Shown here: in pieces, positions 13,386 to 28,718 of the stretch
How the letters are laid out: the number at the start of each line of letters is the position of its first letter
How positions within the stretch are numbered: position 1 is the stretch's first letter
Assembly: GCA_947627845.1 (NCBI GenBank)
Contig: CANQXQ010000006.1
Span: forward strand, 1-33,634
DNA: 33,634 bases
Origin: an uncultured Bacilli bacterium
Lineage (GTDB): Bacteria > Bacillota_I > Bacilli_A > RF39 > UBA660
Direction of reading: 5' to 3'
Program-made: the position numbers and the translations under genes
The notes under the pieces: generated by a model
The model's database searches: none
Seen by the model: only the letters and a program-made list of their open reading frames with translations
Told to the model about the DNA's origin: nothing

Positions 13386-13412
13386 GAAAAAAGATAAAAG
13401 CTTAAAACTTTT
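13386..13412 (-). terminator. Weak terminator-like hairpin after collagen-like gene 2
   Basis: Minus-strand AAAAG-TTTTAAG-CTTTT followed by ATC and six T, just after the stop codon. The stem is short and A/T-rich, so read-through into the glycosyltransferase is likely. Confidence 0.35.
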
Positions 13413-14697
13413 ACCCTAAATATTGAATAAGAATTGTCACTACGGAATTAGCAAAATATGATTCTGAAGCCGTTGTCGTAATAGAGGGCGCATCTAAAAT
13501 AATTTGATTTCTTGAAAGATTAACTAATTCCATAAAAGTTTTTGATTTATCGGACACGACAAACATACCTTGACCATAAATTTTTGTCGTTGGTGCTCCT
13601 CCATACCAAGCCGCCCCTCCTGCATAAATTATTTCATCAAACATATTTTTAAAACCTACAGATACCACCGTACTATTAGGATTAAATACTGTATTCGGAT
13701 CAGTATAAGTTGTCACAACAAAATCTATTCGATATACTCCCTCTTTATTAAATGTAATTAAACTTTCCGGGGTTAAATTACAAATATTAGCATTATCCGA
13801 TGCTTTTCTAGTTATCGGAATCCGATTATATCTTCCTAATGTTATTGGCCCTTGATCATTAAAAGTCACAAAGTAAGCAACTCCTATTTCCTGTGGTCCT
13901 GTTGGTCCTGTCGGTCCTATTTCGCCCTGTGGTCCTTGTATTCCTGGTTCTCCTGCAATTCCTTGAGGGCCTTGTAATCCTCGTGGCCCTTGAGGTCCCA
14001 TCGGTCCGATTGGGCCTTGATCTCCTTTAGGGCCTTTAATAACACCCACATCTTGCCAATCCCCTAAAGTATCAGACCAAACATATAGATTTTCATCAAC
14101 TAAATAACTTTGTCCTGGTTCTCCTTTAGGTTGGGCTTTTTTTAAATCTTCCAAGGTATCATAAGAGCCTAAAATTGTTACACTTGTTCCTGCCGGTCCG
14201 GTTGGTCCTTGAGGCCCCACTTCTCCTGTATAGCCCCGCGGAATAGTAATATCTAAAACATGCTCTAGCCCGGAGCCGACATCGACAATACTCGCCGATT
14301 CTTCTGGTGAACCCGTAATAACTTTACCGATAGAGACTGCAACTGGAGGGCCTACTTCTCCTTGAGGTCCGGTGGGACCCATTTCTCCTTTTTCGCCTGG
14401 AACTCCCGGAATTCCTTGGGGTCCTGGTAAGCCCTCTTCCCCTTGAGGCCCAGTTGGTCCTTGAGGAATAATAAATTCTAAGCGAACTTTTTGCTCATCT
14501 CCAAAATTTACTACTTCCGCGGAACTTCCTGGATCGGCAGTTACAACACTAGCAATTTCTAACGATACAGGTCCGGCTGGTCCGGTTGGTCCTTGGGGTC
14601 CCGTCGGACCTTGAGGACCATAACAAATATAATTTTGACAACTATGATTTTTTTGATAATTATTTATATAAGCTTGAGCTTTCTTTTGATTATTCAT
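13411..14697 (-). CDS. Collagen-like Gly-X-Y surface/spore-coat protein
   Basis: 428 aa. The leader MNNQKKAQAYINNYQKNH has no signal peptide. Collagen segments lie at about 27-45, 80-118, 155-170 and 220-272 (GPTGPQGPTGP type). Between them are beta-rich modules ending in [10 protein letters not shown] or ITIPRGYTG, and one SYDTLEDLKKAQPKGEPGQ module with a Trp-rich strand. The final 150 residues look like a C1q/TNF-like trimeric head. This layout matches BclA-type exosporium filaments and related Firmicute collagen-like proteins. GGAGG precedes ATG 14697. The Gly/Pro/Thr-rich segments raise G+C locally. It has a glycosyltransferase just downstream. Spore-surface location is inferred. Confidence 0.88.
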   Translation of the reverse strand: MNNQKKAQAYINNYQKNHSCQNYICYGPQGPTGPQGPTGPAGPVSLEIASVVTADPGSSAEVVNFGDEQKVRLEFIIPQGPTGPQGEEGLPGPQGIPGVPGEKGEMGPTGPQGEVGPPVAVSIGKVITGSPEESASIVDVGSGLEHVLDITIPRGYTGEVGPQGPTGPAGTSVTILGSYDTLEDLKKAQPKGEPGQSYLVDENLYVWSDTLGDWQDVGVIKGPKGDQGPIGPMGPQGPRGLQGPQGIAGEPGIQGPQGEIGPTGPTGPQEIGVAYFVTFNDQGPITLGRYNRIPITRKASDNANICNLTPESLITFNKEGVYRIDFVVTTYTDPNTVFNPNSTVVSVGFKNMFDEIIYAGGAAWYGGAPTTKIYGQGMFVVSDKSKTFMELVNLSRNQIILDAPSITTTASESYFANSVVTILIQYLG

Positions 14698-14713
14698 TCA
14701 AGCCTCCTTTCAT

Positions 14714-14741
14714 AAAAAGCTATTGAACAATCAATAGCTTT
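14714..14741 (-). terminator. Intrinsic terminator between the two collagen-like genes
   Basis: Perfect 11-bp stem AAAGCTATTGA/TCAATAGCTTT (14716-14726 with 14731-14741) with five T on the minus strand. It ends less than 20 nt before the start of the downstream collagen-like gene, so it should lower that gene's expression relative to the first. Confidence 0.8.
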
Positions 14742-14745
14742 AATC

Positions 14746-15684
14746 TTAATTTAATTTTTTAACAGTTAAAGATGCTGATGTAATACTTCCCGTTACCGCA
14801 TTAGTTGACTCTGCTTCCAAAGTTACTGAATCTCCAGCATTTAAATCAGCTAGAGTTACAGCTTTAAATACTTGCGGTTGATTAGCCTCTAATGATAAAG
14901 TTTGACTTGATCCCACAATATCATTAGAACCATCATTAGCCGTAATAGTTAAAGATTCGGCTGATTGAAGACTTGCGACTACATCATAAGAAATTTCATA
15001 AACGCCATCTTCGGTAATTGAAATGGTATTTGATTCAGTTTCTCCGACACTTGAACTAGGTAGAGGATTTCCTAATTCGACTGTTACTGGAGTATTAGCT
15101 TGTAAATTAAGAGTCTGGGAAGCTGTATTATATAATCCTCCATAAGCATTCAACCCATTAGCTGGTCCAGTTGGTCCTTCAGGAATTGTAAACTCTAATT
15201 GATAAGTTCCATCTCCTCCGGTAATTTGTACTGCCGCAGCCGTTCCTGATGGTACAGTTTGAACTGGTGCTACTGTTAAAGTTGGGGCTGGTCCTACTGG
15301 TCCAACTGCTCCTTGAGGTCCTGTCTCTCCTGTTGGTCCAGCAACCCCCGGAATTCCTTGTGGTCCAGTCGGTCCAATCTCGCCTTGAGGTCCTGTTGCT
15401 CCAGTAGCTCCCACTATTCCTTGTAAACCTTGAGGTCCTGTAGGTCCAGTTGGTCCTTGAGGTATAGTGAAATTAAAAATAGCATTTGAACTTGTTCCCA
15501 CATTTACAACTGTTGCTTCACTTCCTGGTGCCGTTGTCGTTGTAGTTCCCGCTGTTACTGTTGCCGCAGCTGGTCCCGTTGGACCTGTTGGCCCTGTTGG
15601 TCCGTAGCAGCAACATCCTCCACTATAAGGATGATTTTGTTGATAACAATTAATTAATTGTTGTGCTTTTTGTAAATTATTCAA
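14746..15684 (-). CDS. Collagen-like protein with BclA-like C-terminal domain
   Basis: 312 aa. The start is TTG with AGGAGA 5 nt upstream; it is supported by alignment of [20 protein letters not shown] with the neighbouring paralogue's MNNQKKAQ. A CCCYG cysteine cluster precedes the [11 protein letters not shown] tract. A second, longer Gly-X-Y tract covers about 77-132. Each tract is preceded by a beta module ending [10 protein letters not shown] or [10 protein letters not shown]. The C-terminal 130 residues ([15 protein letters not shown]...) match the trimerising heads of exosporium-type collagen-like proteins. A CATATATTA box on the minus strand near 15705-15713 resembles a SigE/SigK -10, without a convincing -35. 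Location and adhesion role inferred. Confidence 0.88.
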
Positions 15685-15720
15685 TTTTATCTCCTTTCTA
15701 ATTTAATATATGAACTAAAA

Positions 15721-15738
15721 AAAAGCCCGATTAAGGCA
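15721..15738 (-). terminator. Second, weak terminator hairpin after the VirB4-like gene
   Basis: Minus-strand GCCT-TAATC-GGGC followed by eight T. With the stronger hairpin at 15765-15786 it forms a tandem stop between the VirB4-like module and the collagen-like genes. Confidence 0.5.
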
Positions 15739-15764
15739 AAAAACTAAATAAAAAGCAAACAAAT

Positions 15765-15786
15765 AAAAAAGAGGCTTATAAGCCTC
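15765..15786 (-). terminator. Intrinsic terminator overlapping the VirB4-like stop codon
   Basis: Minus-strand palindrome GAGGCTTATAAGCCTC followed by six T. The TAA stop codon (15776-15778) lies in the hairpin. Confidence 0.8.
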
Positions 15787-17560
15787 CACCTGAACCAAAA
15801 GAATCTAATTCTTGTTGGGTAACTACTACATTTATCCGCATTCTTCTATTACCACATATAAATAAAGCTTCTCCTTGATTATAATATTTAATACTATCTT
15901 TTTCAGATTCATTCAAATCAATTAACTGAGCTAAATCATCAACTGCTTGTTTTCTAAGTCCCATAATTAAATAATATGAGGCATTATCAAATATCGCTTT
16001 ACCATGAACAATCATATTAGGTGCGGCAAAATCAGTTGGTTGTTGGGTAATAATAATTGTTCCGGTATTGTATTTTCTTGAACGTCTTTGAATTTGTGCT
16101 AAAAATTCTGCGCCTAATTCATTTCTACTTGAAAGTAATACATGGGCTTCATCAACCATCATAACCGTATTAACATCTTTATCTAAACATAAGCCCCAAG
16201 CAAATTTTAAAATATTAAAGAATAAAGCATTCTTAATATTCTCATCACTATTCATAAGTTCACGAATGTTAAAGACAATGTAATCACTATTAAACTCTAA
16301 AGTAGTATGTCCTGTAAAGTAGTAGCGTAACTCTTTAGTAAGAGGTCTAATCTTAAGCTCTAATCTTTCCATTACATCACGTTCTCTAGTCGCATCAGGC
16401 ATTGATAACATCCGACCTTTAATAGTCGCATAAACATCATCAAAAGTTGGAAAATCATTTTTAGTTAAACCGGAAAAATCTGTATCAAAATCAATTTTAT
16501 AACGCTTATAAGTATCTTGAACAATCTCGCTAAACATCGTTAAAACATCTTCTTCAATATCAGGGTATAAATATTTCATAAACGCTTTTAATTGTTGTAA
16601 AGTTCTAGTTAAAATTGTATAGCCAAGACCTTGAGCTAATTCTTCTTCATCGGCATCCATGACTACTTCAAGCGGATTAATCATTCCGTATTCTCCGCCT
16701 TTACCTAAATCTAGGAAATCTCCTCCTAAAGTTCTAGTCATTTCTTCTAGTTCGCCTTCGGGGTCAATACAAACTACCCGACAGCCATTTCTTAAATGTG
16801 TTCTTAAAAGTAATTTTGCCGCGGTTGATTTACCTGAACCAGAAGTACCAAGTAAAATCATATTAGCATTATTTCTGTTAGACTCTTTTTTTATTTGATA
16901 TAAGAATTGGTTAAATAAGACTACACCTCCCGAAAAATCTACGCCAAATAAGGTGGCGTTTCCCGGATCTTTAATACTATCAAAGACAAAAGGGTACATC
17001 GCTGCGACTGTAATAGATGGAATAGGTGTTCCCACTCTTTTTTCAATATCTTGTTTAGGAAATATTGGAATAATTGATTGTAGAACTTTTTCTTGTTCAA
17101 ACATCAAACTTATACCTCTCATTCCTAAAGCATCTAAATAAGTTCGTACTTGAGTCTTCTTTAAATCAAGTTCTTCTTTAGAATCAGCACTAATCATTAA
17201 ATGCATTTGAAAATCAAAAATTCGTGCCTGTGTTGCCGCAAGCATTGAAATAAATTGCTCTAAAGATTCATAATCTTGACGAATTCTTTCTTGAATAGTT
17301 CGATCTTTTTCATTTTGATAACGCATTTTTAAATCAGCAATTTCTTTATTAAGCATTCTTTGTAAAGTACTAAATTCAATAGGAATATGTTTAATTGATA
17401 CTTTAACTCCACTAATACTAGTTATATCAGATAAAAAACCGACATAAACATTTTTAGGGTAACTAATAATAGTTAAAATAGTACAATATTTTCCACCTAA
17501 AGTAAATTCTGTTGGTTTAAACTCCATTCCTTTTGGAGCTATTTCACTTTTTACTTTCAT
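15776..17560 (-). CDS. VirB4/TraE-family T4SS ATPase, C-terminal ATPase part (split gene)
   Basis: 594 aa. A residual N-terminal part (IAPKGMEFKPTEFTLGGKY) leads into the VirB4/CagE ATPase: Walker A GTSGSGKST at 238-246, Walker B VMMVDEAH with D470-E471, sensor-like TQQPTDF and a closing arginine-rich region (GNRRMRINVVV). The ATPase residues look intact. VirB4 ATPases power type IV secretion at the inner membrane face. ATG 17560 overlaps the preceding TAA (TAATG) and GGTGA lies 7 nt upstream, so the two VirB4 pieces are translationally coupled. The upstream PrgI-like gene is the usual Gram-positive partner, but relaxase, VirD4 and wall hydrolase genes are absent. Function outside conjugation is open. 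Confidence 0.9.
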   Translation of the reverse strand: MKVKSEIAPKGMEFKPTEFTLGGKYCTILTIISYPKNVYVGFLSDITSISGVKVSIKHIPIEFSTLQRMLNKEIADLKMRYQNEKDRTIQERIRQDYESLEQFISMLAATQARIFDFQMHLMISADSKEELDLKKTQVRTYLDALGMRGISLMFEQEKVLQSIIPIFPKQDIEKRVGTPIPSITVAAMYPFVFDSIKDPGNATLFGVDFSGGVVLFNQFLYQIKKESNRNNANMILLGTSGSGKSTAAKLLLRTHLRNGCRVVCIDPEGELEEMTRTLGGDFLDLGKGGEYGMINPLEVVMDADEEELAQGLGYTILTRTLQQLKAFMKYLYPDIEEDVLTMFSEIVQDTYKRYKIDFDTDFSGLTKNDFPTFDDVYATIKGRMLSMPDATRERDVMERLELKIRPLTKELRYYFTGHTTLEFNSDYIVFNIRELMNSDENIKNALFFNILKFAWGLCLDKDVNTVMMVDEAHVLLSSRNELGAEFLAQIQRRSRKYNTGTIIITQQPTDFAAPNMIVHGKAIFDNASYYLIMGLRKQAVDDLAQLIDLNESEKDSIKYYNQGEALFICGNRRMRINVVVTQQELDSFGSGGGL

Positions 17561-18108
17561 TAGTTCATCACCGTCCCAAAAGTTGTATGGGTTCCCCCAT
17601 TTAAGAAATTATCTAAAATCATTCTTAAATCATCATTACTAGTTTGCGTTGAATTAAGTCCTGAATTAGCAAGCCCACTTATTAAAGTATGGAGATTTTT
17701 TTGAATTAATTCCATTCTTTTTTCTTTAAATAAAATAAAATATTCCGTATCAACTACATTATATTCTGCACTCATAAATAAATTAGCTTTACTTATATCA
17801 TCCATAATTAGTTTTTTTTCGACTTGACTAGTTGAATTATTATATAAAATTTGTAATTGTGATAAATAAAGACTTATATCAACTGGACGATCAGCAATAA
17901 TTAACCAAAATTCAAAATTAATAGAATTATAAAAATTTCGTAAATTACCAATAATAGCATTTTGTAATCCTTGATCAGCAATAAATATATTTCGAGGCAT
18001 TACTTTAACCCCCGTCACATATTCTCCAGTATCAAGTTCAATCATTCCATTAAGTATTTGTTTAATTGGCAACCAATCTTCCGTATAACCACTACTCATC
18101 TTCGCCAT
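17560..18108 (-). CDS. VirB4-family N-terminal domain protein (split gene)
   Basis: 182 aa. Matches the N-terminal region of Gram-positive VirB4/TraE proteins: start with a DWLPIKQILNGMIELDTGEYV strand set, a long helical region (YLSQLQILYNNSTSQVEKKL) and TEYFILFKEK, ending with NGGTHTTFGTVMN. In full-length homologues the chain continues into IAP-x-SLEF-like sequence, which begins the next gene here. The break therefore falls in the interdomain linker. Together 182+594 aa equals a normal VirB4 length. ATG 18108 (GGTG upstream) overlaps the PrgI-like gene by 17 nt; ATG 18099 is an alternative start. A designed split and an old frameshift are both possible; the coupling signal favours a functional split. 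Confidence 0.8.
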   Translation of the reverse strand: MAKMSSGYTEDWLPIKQILNGMIELDTGEYVTGVKVMPRNIFIADQGLQNAIIGNLRNFYNSINFEFWLIIADRPVDISLYLSQLQILYNNSTSQVEKKLIMDDISKANLFMSAEYNVVDTEYFILFKEKRMELIQKNLHTLISGLANSGLNSTQTSNDDLRMILDNFLNGGTHTTFGTVMN

Positions 18109-18400
18109 CTAAACACCAACCCTTCCAAATATATTGTCTTCTTCCTTTATAAAAAGCATAAACATTAATAATAAATTGTAATACATTATGATAATTAGGA
18201 ATTGGAAGAACTAAAAAACTTGCTATTAAAGCCGGGCATAAAATAAGTAACATTAAAGTAATTTTAGCACTTTCCACAATTAATAATAAAATTAATGTTA
18301 ACCCCACTCCAGCAGAAAATATAATTAAATCAGTTAAGGTAAAAAAGCCTAAAATTAATTGTGATTTTTTCGAGTTCGCGGGAATTAAATAATTGTTCAC
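18092..18400 (-). CDS. PrgI-like T4SS membrane protein
   Basis: 102 aa. Basic start, two adjacent membrane helices (about 17-40 and 46-66), then a short cytoplasmic tail with YAFYKGRRQYIW. This is the size, topology and position of PrgI/TcpE-type proteins encoded directly upstream of VirB4 in Gram-positive conjugation operons, where they are thought to anchor VirB4. The start is GTG at 18400 with GGAGG 8 nt upstream. TATAAT at about 18430 may be its -10. First gene of a three-gene overlapping unit. Confidence 0.78.
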   Translation of the reverse strand: MNNYLIPANSKKSQLILGFFTLTDLIIFSAGVGLTLILLLIVESAKITLMLLILCPALIASFLVLPIPNYHNVLQFIINVYAFYKGRRQYIWKGWCLDGEDE

Positions 18401-24425: not shown

Positions 24426-24752
24426 CTACCAAAATAACCCTTTTAAAATCTTCATTAACCCTCCAACTCCATTAGTCATTAATTCACTTAAACCCTCACT
24501 AAACTTATTCCCAATCTTTGTAACTTTATTGGAATAATCTACCTTTTCTTCTTTTAAATAATCTTTTAATTCTACTATTTCTCCATTTCTTAAATCATCT
24601 TCAAACTTTGCCATAGCTTCTTTAGTCATTAAAGCTTTACTATTAGCTCTTGTCTCATAATACCCACTTTTATAGGCAATAATAAGCGCCACATAAACTA
24701 AAAATAATACCCCTAATAACTTAAAAAAGATACTTGTTTTTTTCTTTTTCAT
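24426..24752 (-). CDS. yqxA: YqxA-like small membrane protein
   Basis: 108 aa: KKKK start, one membrane helix (about 10-28), charged middle and amphipathic end (NGVGGLMKILKGLFW). This size, topology and C-terminus resemble B. subtilis YqxA (DUF3679), which also follows spoIIP. ATG overlaps the spoIIP stop (ATGA) with AAAGGGGG upstream, so translation is coupled. Function unknown. The family call rests mainly on position and pattern. Confidence 0.6.
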   Translation of the reverse strand: MKKKKTSIFFKLLGVLFLVYVALIIAYKSGYYETRANSKALMTKEAMAKFEDDLRNGEIVELKDYLKEEKVDYSNKVTKIGNKFSEGLSELMTNGVGGLMKILKGLFW

Positions 24753-25663
24753 ATTTCCCCCTTTATATATTTAGCTAGTGTTCCAGCAACTATCTTTAAA
24801 GTTCGATTAACTTCGGCAATAGTATTTTTTCTTCCCCCAACCTGTAAAAGCATTACATTCTCATCAAAATCTTGATTATAAACTCCATGATAGCCCGCTC
24901 CACCCCATTTACTAACTCCTTTAGATATACAACTATTAAACTTTTTAAGATCATTATCTAGCTTATTTACTATTTTTTCATTTTTAAGATAATTAGTATT
25001 ATCTGTTCCCACCACCCACATAACTTTCGCATAAGCTATATCATCAATCATACAAGTAGTATTATCATAATCATTATCAGATAATTGAATATCAATAAAA
25101 TATTTTAAGGAATTATTTTCATTTTTAGCATTATTAAGTAATATTCTTGATCCCCTATAACTTAAAGAATAATCAATATTATTCTCTTTTAAAACTTTAG
25201 CAACACTACTAAGTTCTACTAAAGAACTTATTCCCTCTTTTTTTAAATATTCTTGTAATATTAAACTAGCTTGGGTAATAACAGGATTAATATTATAAGA
25301 ACTATAATAATTATTTGTATATTTATCAGTTTGAAAAGTATTATATATATATACTAAAGGTTTAGTATCTATAACTAAATCAGTTATATTAGAATTATCG
25401 CTACTTACTTTTTTATCTAAATATATATTAAATCCATAACTATTTTTATATAATAAATTACTATTAAAACTATACTTATCAATTATATTCCCAAAAGAAT
25501 TTACTTTTATAATTTTTATCATATTATTACTTAAAAATAAATCTATATATATATTAACTATTATATTTAAACTAAATAAAATTAACATAAATATAATTAT
25601 TTTACTTAATATAACTTTATATCTCGGTATTTTTATTTTTTTTCTAGCAATAAACCTTTTCAT
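24749..25663 (-). CDS. spoIIP: SpoIIP-family protein with substituted active site (predicted pseudoenzyme)
   Basis: SpoIIP is the zinc-dependent amidase/endopeptidase that, with SpoIID and SpoIIM, degrades septal peptidoglycan during engulfment. 304 aa: a membrane helix (about 19-43) and an extracytoplasmic SpoIIP domain recognised from SYRGSRILLNNA, AKVMWVVGTDN, GVYNQDFDENVMLL and QVGGRKNT. The expected catalytic residues are changed. The usual YHTHxxE is Y-N108-T-F110-Q-T-D113. The usual DIHRD is DI-Q193-L-S. The usual EVGG is Q274-VGG. No frameshift or stop is present and the scaffold motifs remain, so the protein is probably expressed but inactive as a hydrolase. The family consensus is from memory. 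Confidence 0.85.
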   Translation of the reverse strand: MKRFIARKKIKIPRYKVILSKIIIFMLILFSLNIIVNIYIDLFLSNNMIKIIKVNSFGNIIDKYSFNSNLLYKNSYGFNIYLDKKVSSDNSNITDLVIDTKPLVYIYNTFQTDKYTNNYYSSYNINPVITQASLILQEYLKKEGISSLVELSSVAKVLKENNIDYSLSYRGSRILLNNAKNENNSLKYFIDIQLSDNDYDNTTCMIDDIAYAKVMWVVGTDNTNYLKNEKIVNKLDNDLKKFNSCISKGVSKWGGAGYHGVYNQDFDENVMLLQVGGRKNTIAEVNRTLKIVAGTLAKYIKGEI

Positions 25664-25866: not shown

Positions 25867-27234
25867 CTATGTCGCAACAAATGGTTCTGTACTCGTTCCT
25901 TTTCCTGTGATACTTATATTAGCTTTCAGATTTATTACTGGACGCACCCCAGGCTCAGTCCAGCTCACGCGGTCGTAGCCGAGGGAGCCACCCGAATACA
26001 CATCGAACACGAAAGCGCTGCCGTCAGAGCTATTATAGACATACGGAGACAAGGTCCAATAATACTGGTTAGTATATAGCCAATTACTTGAATTACTTGA
26101 TCCATATATCATTCCCGCTAATGCTACTTCATCGGCTGTTATTAATGCTGCTGGCACTTCCAAAGCTCCATTTCCACTTCCTGCATCTGTATTTAAGGTA
26201 TATAAATCATTTTTGTCACAGCTTAGATCTGGTGTTACACTTGTTTTACTATAAAATCTCTCTCTTGGTTTATATGCTGTCTTTGTTGTACTTGTTCCAT
26301 TTCCTGTATAACTACTATCTGCTGTTGATACTCTTCTATCATTACAAAATCCGGTACTTCCACTTATTTTACTGGTATAACTGTTTAAATTTGTTCCATA
26401 CCACTTTGTTACTTCATCTGCTATTGTACTTTTTCCGCCTTTATTACTATGTGTTTGACTATAATCACTTGATCCTTTTGTTCCATAATAATAACCTACA
26501 TATGTATTATCTCCATAATCTGTATTATATGCGATACTCGATACTGCATTTGTTGCAGTTCCTGTTGTATCTGTACAACTATTTGAATTACACTGGAATA
26601 TTACTCGGAGTGTTCCGTCACTATTTATTCTTATTATTCTCCATGTCTTTCCTGCGAATCTTAACCAATTATCTGTGACATTTCCTCTAAATACATATGT
26701 TTTATCTCCATTTTCTGGGTATGAATACAATGTATTACTTATTGAATCACTTCCAGCTTTTCCGAATGAGCCTTTTTCTAATGAAGTATCTATTGTATAT
26801 TTACTTCCACCTTTGGCTGCCTCTAATTTTGCTAATGTTTTTTTAGATAAACTTTCTTTTACAAAATACAAATAACATTTACTTCCTTTTTTTAATTTTC
26901 CTATGACTAGATTTCCTTCACTATCTGTTGCTAATGTTACATCATCATGTTGTTTTGAATCTGTTGTATAACAATAACTATTTTCTTGATCTATCTCATA
27001 ACCTGCTCCCGGCATTTCAGTTGTTTCTACTCCATCTTTATACATTGCTATAGTATTTAAATCTGGTAATTTATAATTTATTGTTCCTGTCATTAATGGT
27101 ATACTCTCTGTATTCCTATAACTTGCTTTACTTGGTAATATATTTATTAATGTAAGTATACTTGCTGCTATTATTACTCCTATTACTATATACTTATACT
27201 TATTATTACTGGTTTTTAATTTTTCTAGTTTCAT
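25867..27234 (-). CDS. Anchored surface protein with DGR-type variable C-terminus (C-type-lectin-like)
   Basis: 455 aa. The start is ATG 27234 (AAAGGG 9 nt upstream; TTG 27255 rejected). Lys-rich start, one membrane helix (about 15-34), then a Ser/Thr/Gly/Tyr-rich exported part with cysteines and repeated RFAGKTWRIIRINSDGTL-like strands. The end, YYWTLSPYVYNSSDG...GVRPVINLKA, matches the FGE-sulfatase/C-type-lectin-like termini of variable proteins in Firmicutes. The last 35 codons before GVRP are anomalous: about 57% G+C in 120 nt (25941-26060) and mostly NNC/NNG codons, whereas the rest is A/T-ending. Own promoter (TTGACT-17-TATAAT) and terminator. It splits spoIIP from gpr. Ligand-binding role inferred. 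Confidence 0.8.
   Translation of the reverse strand: MKLEKLKTSNNKYKYIVIGVIIAASILTLINILPSKASYRNTESIPLMTGTINYKLPDLNTIAMYKDGVETTEMPGAGYEIDQENSYCYTTDSKQHDDVTLATDSEGNLVIGKLKKGSKCYLYFVKESLSKKTLAKLEAAKGGSKYTIDTSLEKGSFGKAGSDSISNTLYSYPENGDKTYVFRGNVTDNWLRFAGKTWRIIRINSDGTLRVIFQCNSNSCTDTTGTATNAVSSIAYNTDYGDNTYVGYYYGTKGSSDYSQTHSNKGGKSTIADEVTKWYGTNLNSYTSKISGSTGFCNDRRVSTADSSYTGNGTSTTKTAYKPRERFYSKTSVTPDLSCDKNDLYTLNTDAGSGNGALEVPAALITADEVALAGMIYGSSNSSNWLYTNQYYWTLSPYVYNSSDGSAFVFDVYSGGSLGYDRVSWTEPGVRPVINLKANISITGKGTSTEPFVAT
25941..26060 (-). other. Candidate diversity-generating retroelement variable region (VR)
   Basis: On the minus strand 23 of 35 codons end in G or C, many as NNC (AGC, GAC, GGC, TTC, CTC, TAC, CGC). 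That is the pattern left when AAC codons of a template repeat are randomised at the two adenines. The 3' edge runs into an invariant GVRPVINL block, as in known VRs. No reverse transcriptase or template repeat lies in this window, so any donor must be elsewhere. Confidence 0.6.
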
Positions 27235-27285
27235 GTTCTTTTCCCTTTCTATCAATCATATTATAATTTTCTAACTTATATTTAA

Positions 27286-27314
27286 ATTATATATTCTCCT
27301 ATACTCAAAGTCAA
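27286..27314 (-). promoter_or_regulatory. Promoter of the variable-region gene with possible operator repeats
   Basis: Minus-strand TTGACT, 17-nt spacer, TATAAT. Repeats CTCAA/GTCAA/GTCAA at 27304, 27310 and 27322 (plus strand) overlap the -35 and could bind the divergent tandem-HTH regulator. Confidence 0.6.
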
Positions 27315-27386
27315 GAAAAATGTCAACATTTCGGCACTAAAATTTTTTTTAAATAATTTAATGAGACAATTATTTTGGTGATTAAA

Positions 27387-27842
27387 ATGAATTATAAAGA
27401 ACGTATGAATGAAATAAGAACAATAAATGATATAAGCCAAAAAGAAATAGCTAAAGTTTTAGGAATTTCAGCCTATACCTATAGCCACTACGAAACAGCT
27501 GATACAATAATTCCTTTAAAACATTTAATTGCTTGTTGTGATTACTTTAAAGTATCTGTAGATTATATTTTAAATTTAACTAATCAAAAAAAATATGCTA
27601 ATTCTAATAAAGAATATAACTTAATTGTAAGTGGTAATAGACTAAAAGCTTTTCGTAAAGAAAATAAAATTACTCAAAACACTTTAGCTAAAAAAATAAA
27701 TATTGCTAGATCTATGCTTTCAGAATATGAAAAAGGTCATTATTTAATTTCAATTCATTGCTTATATTCCATTTGTAAAAAATATAATATTTCTGCCGAT
27801 TACTTACTGGGAAGAATTGACAGTCCTATATACTTAAAATAA
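27387..27842 (+). CDS. Tandem XRE/Cro-CI helix-turn-helix regulator
   Basis: 151 aa from ATG 27387 (GGTGATTAAA upstream; GTG 27375 rejected). Two complete XRE HTH domains: first about 4-61 (ISQKEIAKVLGISAYTYSHYE ... FKVSVDYILNLTN, cut here), second about 80-140 (ITQNTLAKKINIARSMLSEYEKG). No other domain. Divergently transcribed from the variable-region gene with a shared 150-bp intergenic region, so local control of that gene is the simplest guess. Ends in a strong terminator. Confidence 0.9.
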   Translation: MNYKERMNEIRTINDISQKEIAKVLGISAYTYSHYETADTIIPLKHLIACCDYFKVSVDYILNLTNQKKYANSNKEYNLIVSGNRLKAFRKENKITQNTLAKKINIARSMLSEYEKGHYLISIHCLYSICKKYNISADYLLGRIDSPIYLK

Positions 27843-27921: not shown

Positions 27922-27990
27922 AATCTGGAATCAATTCCATTTTGGCCAATTTCCGGCTAATCTGGAATTAACTCCATTTTCGCCATATTT
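27922..27990. repeat. Two 32-bp direct repeats, possible insertion-sequence end remnant
   Basis: Copies at 27922-27953 and 27959-27990 share AATCTGGAAT-AA-TCCATTTT-GCCA with a few mismatches; period 37 nt. A TGTC lies just left of the first copy. Repeated binding sites next to a TG end are typical of IS21-family termini. No istA/istB is present, so this would be a solo remnant. It abuts the gpr stop codon. Family assignment is from pattern memory. Confidence 0.45.
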
Positions 27991-28718
27991 TAAAAAAATA
28001 AATCGTTTAAAGCTTCACTTATTATTTTACTAGTTAATTCTACAACTTCTTTAACATTAGGCGTAGTATATAATCTTTTATCTTTTTCATAAACCAAAGG
28101 TACTCCTATCGCTATAACCGGAATATTAAATGTTTTACTATCTATTTTTTTATTATCTTTAATTGCACTTCCGGGAATAATCCCCGTATTATTTATTTCG
28201 ATAAAATTATTTAAGTTTTCTTCTTTATTAGTCGCTAAAGCATCAATCATAATAATCACCGATGGCTTTAATTTTTTTACGACCATTTCAATTAAACTAA
28301 AAGAACTAATTCCTGTTTTTTCGGTAACTTCCGGATTAAATAACGCAACTTTAGGTAAATTTAAAAAGTCGGTAAAATGATTAGTTGCCATTATTTTATT
28401 GGTGGTATAAACCCCTAAACTATCACAAATAATACTGGAATTGCCTAACCCAATAATTAAAGGTTTAGTTGGAGTTTCATTTTTAAATAAACTTTTCAAA
28501 ATTTTCATTAATTCTTTTTTAATATTTTTTTCTTTTTCATAGAGTTTTTCAAAAGTAAAATTAATAGAAAAATAATCGCCTCTAATTCTTTTAACTTTAG
28601 CTTCATTATTATAGTCTACTTTAAAATGACTAACCCTATAACCCCGATAATTATACTCATCTATTTTATATAAATTATCTTTAATAATTTTTGAAGAATC
28701 CATAAATAATTTTTTCAT
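27990..28718 (-). CDS. gpr: Germination protease GPR
   Basis: Aspartic-type spore protease that degrades small acid-soluble DNA-binding proteins during germination. 242 aa, shorter than the usual 320-370. Core motifs are intact: IIGLGNSSIICDSLG with Asp99, NPEVTEKTGISSF, MIDALA with Asp159, NNTGIIPGSA and PVIAIGVPLVY. Asp99 and Asp159 correspond to the two essential aspartates of the family. The N-terminal propeptide and central segments are reduced. Its presence implies SASP genes elsewhere. Downstream neighbours were spoIIP/yqxA before insertion of the variable-region cassette. Confidence 0.92.
   Translation of the reverse strand: MKKLFMDSSKIIKDNLYKIDEYNYRGYRVSHFKVDYNNEAKVKRIRGDYFSINFTFEKLYEKEKNIKKELMKILKSLFKNETPTKPLIIGLGNSSIICDSLGVYTTNKIMATNHFTDFLNLPKVALFNPEVTEKTGISSFSLIEMVVKKLKPSVIIMIDALATNKEENLNNFIEINNTGIIPGSAIKDNKKIDSKTFNIPVIAIGVPLVYEKDKRLYTTPNVKEVVELTSKIISEALNDLFF

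Follow-up and report, generated by a model that had tools for sequence, protein, structure and literature searches.

A SpoIIP orthologue without its catalytic residues suggests a non-cutting version of this engulfment protein in a genus of gut Bacilli

The main finding of this work was the identification of a spoIIP gene, at positions 24749-25663 on the minus strand of the analysed window (the whole stretch of 33,634 nucleotides from an uncultured Bacilli bacterium), which encodes a 304-residue SpoIIP orthologue (PF07454) whose catalytic residues have been lost, a state found throughout the genus of this bacterium. We consider it probable that this orthologue has no amidase activity and that selection has retained it for a non-catalytic role within the SpoIID-SpoIIM-SpoIIP (DMP) machinery, in gut Bacilli of a genus that bears the gene set of a spore-former. 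The selected pseudoenzyme proposed by the first-pass annotation of this DNA is supported by a motif replaced across the genus, the absence of stop codons, omega values of 0.10-0.11, a predicted fold that is retained and a set of spore genes that includes a catalytic SpoIID. The protein matched PF07454 over residues 97-296 (6.5e-33, 114.8 bits), exceeding the Pfam cut-off of 24.4, and matched NCBIfam TIGR02867, a narrower family than PF07454, with 1.9e-32 and 112.8 bits, under the cut-off of 123.15. A hydrophobic N-terminal helix precedes the SpoIIP domain, and the reading frame is open, as had been reported.

The intact proteins of the family carry the motifs Y-N/S-T/S-H-x-x-E, D-x-H-R-D and E-x-G-G, and in their place the window protein reads YNTFQTD, DIQLS and QVGG. 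As located by alignment, H110F and E113D fall in motif 1 (residues 107-113; 25325-25345, minus strand), H193Q, R194L and D195S in motif 2 (residues 191-195; 25079-25093, minus strand), and Q274 (24842-24844, minus strand) replaces the Glu that stands before V-G-G in 59/59 intact proteins and in 8/33 of the genus. These replacements lie exactly where they had first been described, and the column counts place them far beyond chance. By motif, H110 and H193 correspond to H142 and H222 of Clostridioides difficile, in which the substitution of either histidine abolishes SpoIIP activity and sporulation (PMC6221140); a published survey calls both histidines strictly conserved (PMC6934232). From these losses we infer that the window SpoIIP has no amidase activity. 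The first-pass annotation went further and described all expected zinc ligands as missing. Six positions are indeed replaced, but this wording is too strong, because E284 (24812-24814, minus strand) persists, in 32/33 proteins of the genus and 56/59 intact ones, and matches by its motif, GgxxNxxxE, the published candidate catalytic Glu of C. difficile, E309 (PMC6934232). Judged as an active SpoIIP, the protein lacks the two histidines (F110, Q193) and keeps the Glu of motif 3. The residue losses stand, but the name zinc ligand does not fare as well, since a role in zinc binding is given by analogy with CwlV and C. difficile SpoIIP, purified and active, yielded no detectable metal (PMC6221140).

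The replacement is a property of the genus and not of one genome. The alignment compared 33 SpoIIP proteins of the window's genus with 59 counterparts in other genera of the family, which were selected as intact and in which H110, E113, H193, R194, D195 and E274 were each found in 59/59; these 59 came from 64 other-genus proteins, the remaining five being low-scoring and lacking one or more of the six residues. In the genus, both histidines are absent from 33/33 proteins, and H110, H193 and D195 were kept in none of the 33, R194 in one, E113 in two and E274 in eight. The substitutes are Phe (26) or Tyr (7) at 110; Asp (24), Ser (5), Glu (2), Thr and Ala at 113; Gln (26), Gly (5), Thr and Glu at 193; Ile (15), Leu (12), Val (4), Met and Arg at 194; Ser (29), Ala (2), Phe and Val at 195; and Gln (18), Glu (8) and others at 274. 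The surrounding scaffold (Y105, Y107, N108, Y115, E150, Y169, D191, A212, N228, N263, D265, G276, N280 and E284) is common to the genus and the intact proteins. A shift of the ligands to other positions, which would have overturned the original claim, was looked for in the alignment and rejected, because none of the columns with His or Cys shows conservation across the genus, the highest reaching 27% (residue 259). A sequencing or assembly error was likewise rejected, the same state being present in 33 genomes. The relatives of this type are metagenome-assembled, under the labels 'uncultured Bacilli' and 'uncultured Mycoplasma'; the sample names of many include 'Lapin', which probably indicates rabbit gut. 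Their spore genes and small genome size, read with the literature (PMC10868615), point to the uncultured order RF39.

The loss of both histidines occurred at least three times on the SpoIIP tree, in which several branches are long. With the ligand columns left out, the window's genus forms one clade (support 95/91) with an intact sister (L182). In genus g40, both histidines are lost in two genomes whose proteins score low and may be decaying, and the nearest row of the tree (L176) is intact. In genus g93, one genome (L152) has Y110, Q193 and L274 and its congener (L153) is intact; the replacement letters Y and Q also occur in the window's genus. The first 30 comparison loci were skewed to high scorers, and the extra losses came to light when low-scoring family members were added. 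In genus g91 (L150, L151), both histidines are kept, with Asn at 274 before x-G-G and a motif 2 that reads DIHID or DLHSD.

Selection on the altered gene was evaluated with codon models. The omega in the genus was 0.097-0.108 for SpoIIP and 0.110-0.119 for SpoIID, values which are rough and affected by saturation because of the long branches, so that the closest pairs were taken as a check; these gave 0.15-0.33 for SpoIIP, and in one matched pair (G000/G314) 0.25 for SpoIIP and 0.22 for SpoIID. Across the 33 genus genomes with a SpoIIP match, none of the matches contains a stop codon, and the mean pairwise identity of the domain was 51% in the genus vs. 53% among 30 intact relatives. The dN/dS comparison suggested at the outset thus indicates purifying selection similar to that on SpoIID, and decay in the relatives was not borne out; a decaying gene was ruled out by the absence of stops and an omega of about 0.1. 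The AlphaFold model of the window SpoIIP has a mean pLDDT of 79, with blocks of 86-97 over most of the domain beyond residue 130, and its best Foldseek matches in the PDB were AmiC2, AmiP and CwlD (E 3e-5 to 5e-4, target TM 0.54-0.68), which points to an Amidase_3-like fold that is predicted to be retained. Searches by sequence found no relative of the window SpoIIP with a solved structure.

The gene had been placed beside gpr and yqxA, a description that holds for one side. A gene of 108 residues in the yqxA position (24426-24752, minus strand), membrane-anchored, overlaps the spoIIP stop and occupies the same place in 60/60 SpoIIP loci compared, within and beyond the window's genus; it matched no Pfam family, and the name yqxA is given by position alone. 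This yqxA-side position indicates that the window spoIIP is an orthologue rather than a paralogue. The gpr gene for the germination protease GPR (27990-28718, minus strand; TIGR01441 1.5e-46, over the cut-off; PF03418 2.1e-30), which lies 5' of spoIIP in many of the loci compared, is not directly adjacent in the window, where two inserted ORFs intervene. Between the two genes (25867-27842), we observed a surface-like ORF of 462 residues and a divergent XRE-type HTH gene, a cassette that in relatives (L062, L063, L077) forms tandem repeats or is missing, as if duplicating or moving. Elsewhere in the window (13411-18400), two collagen-like triple-helix (GPT-rich) proteins adjoin VirB4- and PrgI-like type IV secretion genes, all named from the appearance of their sequences.

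The engulfment partners are present in the genus. SpoIID was found in 36/36 genomes, with the catalytic Glu motif GEMP in 28/28 proteins read, and shows five fixed differences only, one of them D to V at residue 122, in front of the SpoIID motif 2; a co-change of SpoIID with the dead SpoIIP was set aside, as five differences are too few to argue from. SpoIIQ adjoins SpoIID in the genus and has a degenerate LytM motif; that SpoIIQ gained activity was excluded, since none of the genus members read has its HxH. SpoIIM falls short of the Pfam cut-off in the genus, with one weak match in 21 genomes, but a query with the genus's own sequence recovered a diverged homologue in 35/36 genomes (L188:1278-1856; L194-L223), which ruled out its loss; in the window's genome, this homologue adjoins mnmA. 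Both DMP partners, SpoIID and a diverged SpoIIM, that the first-pass annotation proposed to look for were hence found. SpoIVA was detected in 21/21 genus genomes tested vs. 0/9 family genomes without SpoIIP. With SpoIID, SpoIIQ, SpoIIM, SpoIVA and gpr, to which the window's genome adds a CwlD-like amidase, the genus has the gene set of a spore-former, and we infer from it that the genus forms spores.

A different explanation for a selected but altered SpoIIP is that it left engulfment for another process of the envelope, e.g. vegetative cell-wall maintenance. In many loci of the genus, spoIIP adjoins murG, murB and ftsQ-like genes, and no sporulation sigma promoter of the B. subtilis type was found upstream of spoIIP in 25 loci, but such a scan has little power in DNA as AT-rich as this. 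Since the spoIIP-yqxA order is common to intact relatives, gpr is upstream in many loci and SpoIIP co-occurs with SpoIID and SpoIVA, we regard this explanation as unlikely. It is rather improbable, too, that the window SpoIIP still hydrolyses peptidoglycan through an active site that has been altered, works without metal or differs in some other way. Three acidic residues (D191, E150 and E284) persist, Asp prevails at position 113, and the failure to detect metal in active C. difficile SpoIIP (PMC6221140) leaves room for more than one mechanism; against this, 33/33 proteins have lost the two histidines shown to be essential in C. difficile, as well as the R-D pair of motif 2, and no new conserved His or Cys has appeared.

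We give equally little credence to sporulation disappearing in the genus, with SpoIIP as an early casualty still undeleted. Sporulation loss is common in related orders (PMC10868615), the genomes are small, SpoIIM has diverged, and the low-scoring g40 proteins may represent such a decay. Nevertheless, 33 diverged genomes without stops, with an omega of about 0.1 and a conserved pseudo-motif, and the presence of SpoIVA in 21/21 and SpoIID in 36/36 genomes, are difficult to reconcile with it. That the active amidase is encoded by an undetected second SpoIIP-like gene, the window copy being a spare paralogue, is highly improbable: no second SpoIIP, intact or otherwise, was found in the window's genome (a draft of 0.98 Mb, 92% complete, which leaves some room for one), nearly all family genomes are single-copy among the matches listed, each genus genome has one full copy, with a weak additional match of 82 residues in G311 only, and the yqxA-side position marks the window copy as the orthologue.

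Taken together, the selected pseudoenzyme is the explanation that we favour, and our findings suggest that this genus engulfs its spores with a non-cutting version of SpoIIP. In the assembly model for B. subtilis, SpoIIM recruits SpoIIP and SpoIIP recruits SpoIID (cited in PMC6221140), and SpoIID works on glycans denuded by SpoIIP. In the genus, the old substrate cleft of SpoIIP would most likely still bind peptidoglycan, and SpoIIP would most likely bridge SpoIIM and SpoIID, putting a catalytically intact SpoIID at the septum. The stem peptides would be removed by another enzyme, possibly the CwlD-like Amidase_3, or their removal would be unnecessary. That a second loss, in g93, arrived at the same letters Y and Q also counts in favour of the pseudoenzyme. 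Several points count against it: SpoIID of C. difficile and B. subtilis needs prior amidase activity of SpoIIP; part of the old active site persists, as E284 is retained; and, with regard to bridging, the SpoIIP-SpoIIM contact was only weak in the C. difficile two-hybrid data (PMC6221140).

A further point against the pseudoenzyme is that the family genomes revealed no genus-specific replacement amidase, among the matches listed. When Amidase_3, NlpC/P60, Amidase_2 and CHAP were counted there, none was gained throughout the genus. The most regular candidate for the removal of stem peptides is the CwlD-like Amidase_3, which in the window's genome has intact His and Glu motifs; no Amidase_3 match was listed for G097 (99% complete) or G314. 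Frames of about 100 residues that match the first half of Amidase_3 only were seen in G015:C4, G008:C35 and G020:C25, with separate second-half-only frames on the same contigs, about 12-17 kb away. In addition, one frame of 743 residues (L224:4635-6866, G000:C1) combines SpoIID and CHAP domains, and several other genera have similar large frames in which a SpoIID domain occurs with CHAP, NlpC/P60 or Amidase_3.

More tentatively, it is possible that engulfment in this genus proceeds without any amidase or endopeptidase activity of SpoIIP, with SpoIID as the sole enzyme of the DMP machinery and a pseudoenzyme SpoIIP to guide it, and that the family arrived at such an arrangement on more than one occasion. 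If so, this genus would be an exception to the accepted rule that SpoIID can act only once SpoIIP has denuded the glycans. A genus with a long-fixed loss, a SpoIIP under selection, a catalytic SpoIID and a set of spore genes offers a natural separation of the catalytic and structural roles of SpoIIP, and makes it testable whether the engulfment complex depends on the activity of SpoIIP or on its presence as a component, and whether SpoIID invariably requires denuded glycan.

In the open-access literature searched, we found no report of SpoIIP degeneration or of a SpoIIP pseudoenzyme. With SpoIIP of Bacillus subtilis and C. difficile (PF07454/TIGR02867), the window protein shares the sequence family, the N-terminal membrane anchor, the scaffold residues, the Glu of motif 3, the gpr-spoIIP-yqxA neighbourhood and the SpoIID and SpoIIM partners, but it differs from them in having neither of the essential histidines nor the R-D of motif 2, and no amidase activity would be expected from such a sequence. 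The best fold matches of its model, the Amidase_3 N-acetylmuramoyl-L-alanine amidases AmiC2, AmiP and CwlD (PF01520), are active and have their catalytic set, whereas the window SpoIIP is without its own. A precedent is SpoIIQ with the degenerate LytM domain of Bacilli, a hydrolase fold without its metal motif that serves in engulfment as a structural part (PMC6934232), although its fold and partner are unrelated and its degeneration is widespread in Bacilli. The catalytic loss in SpoIIP is a variation inside a known family, for which the degenerate SpoIIQ provides the precedent of a structural role.
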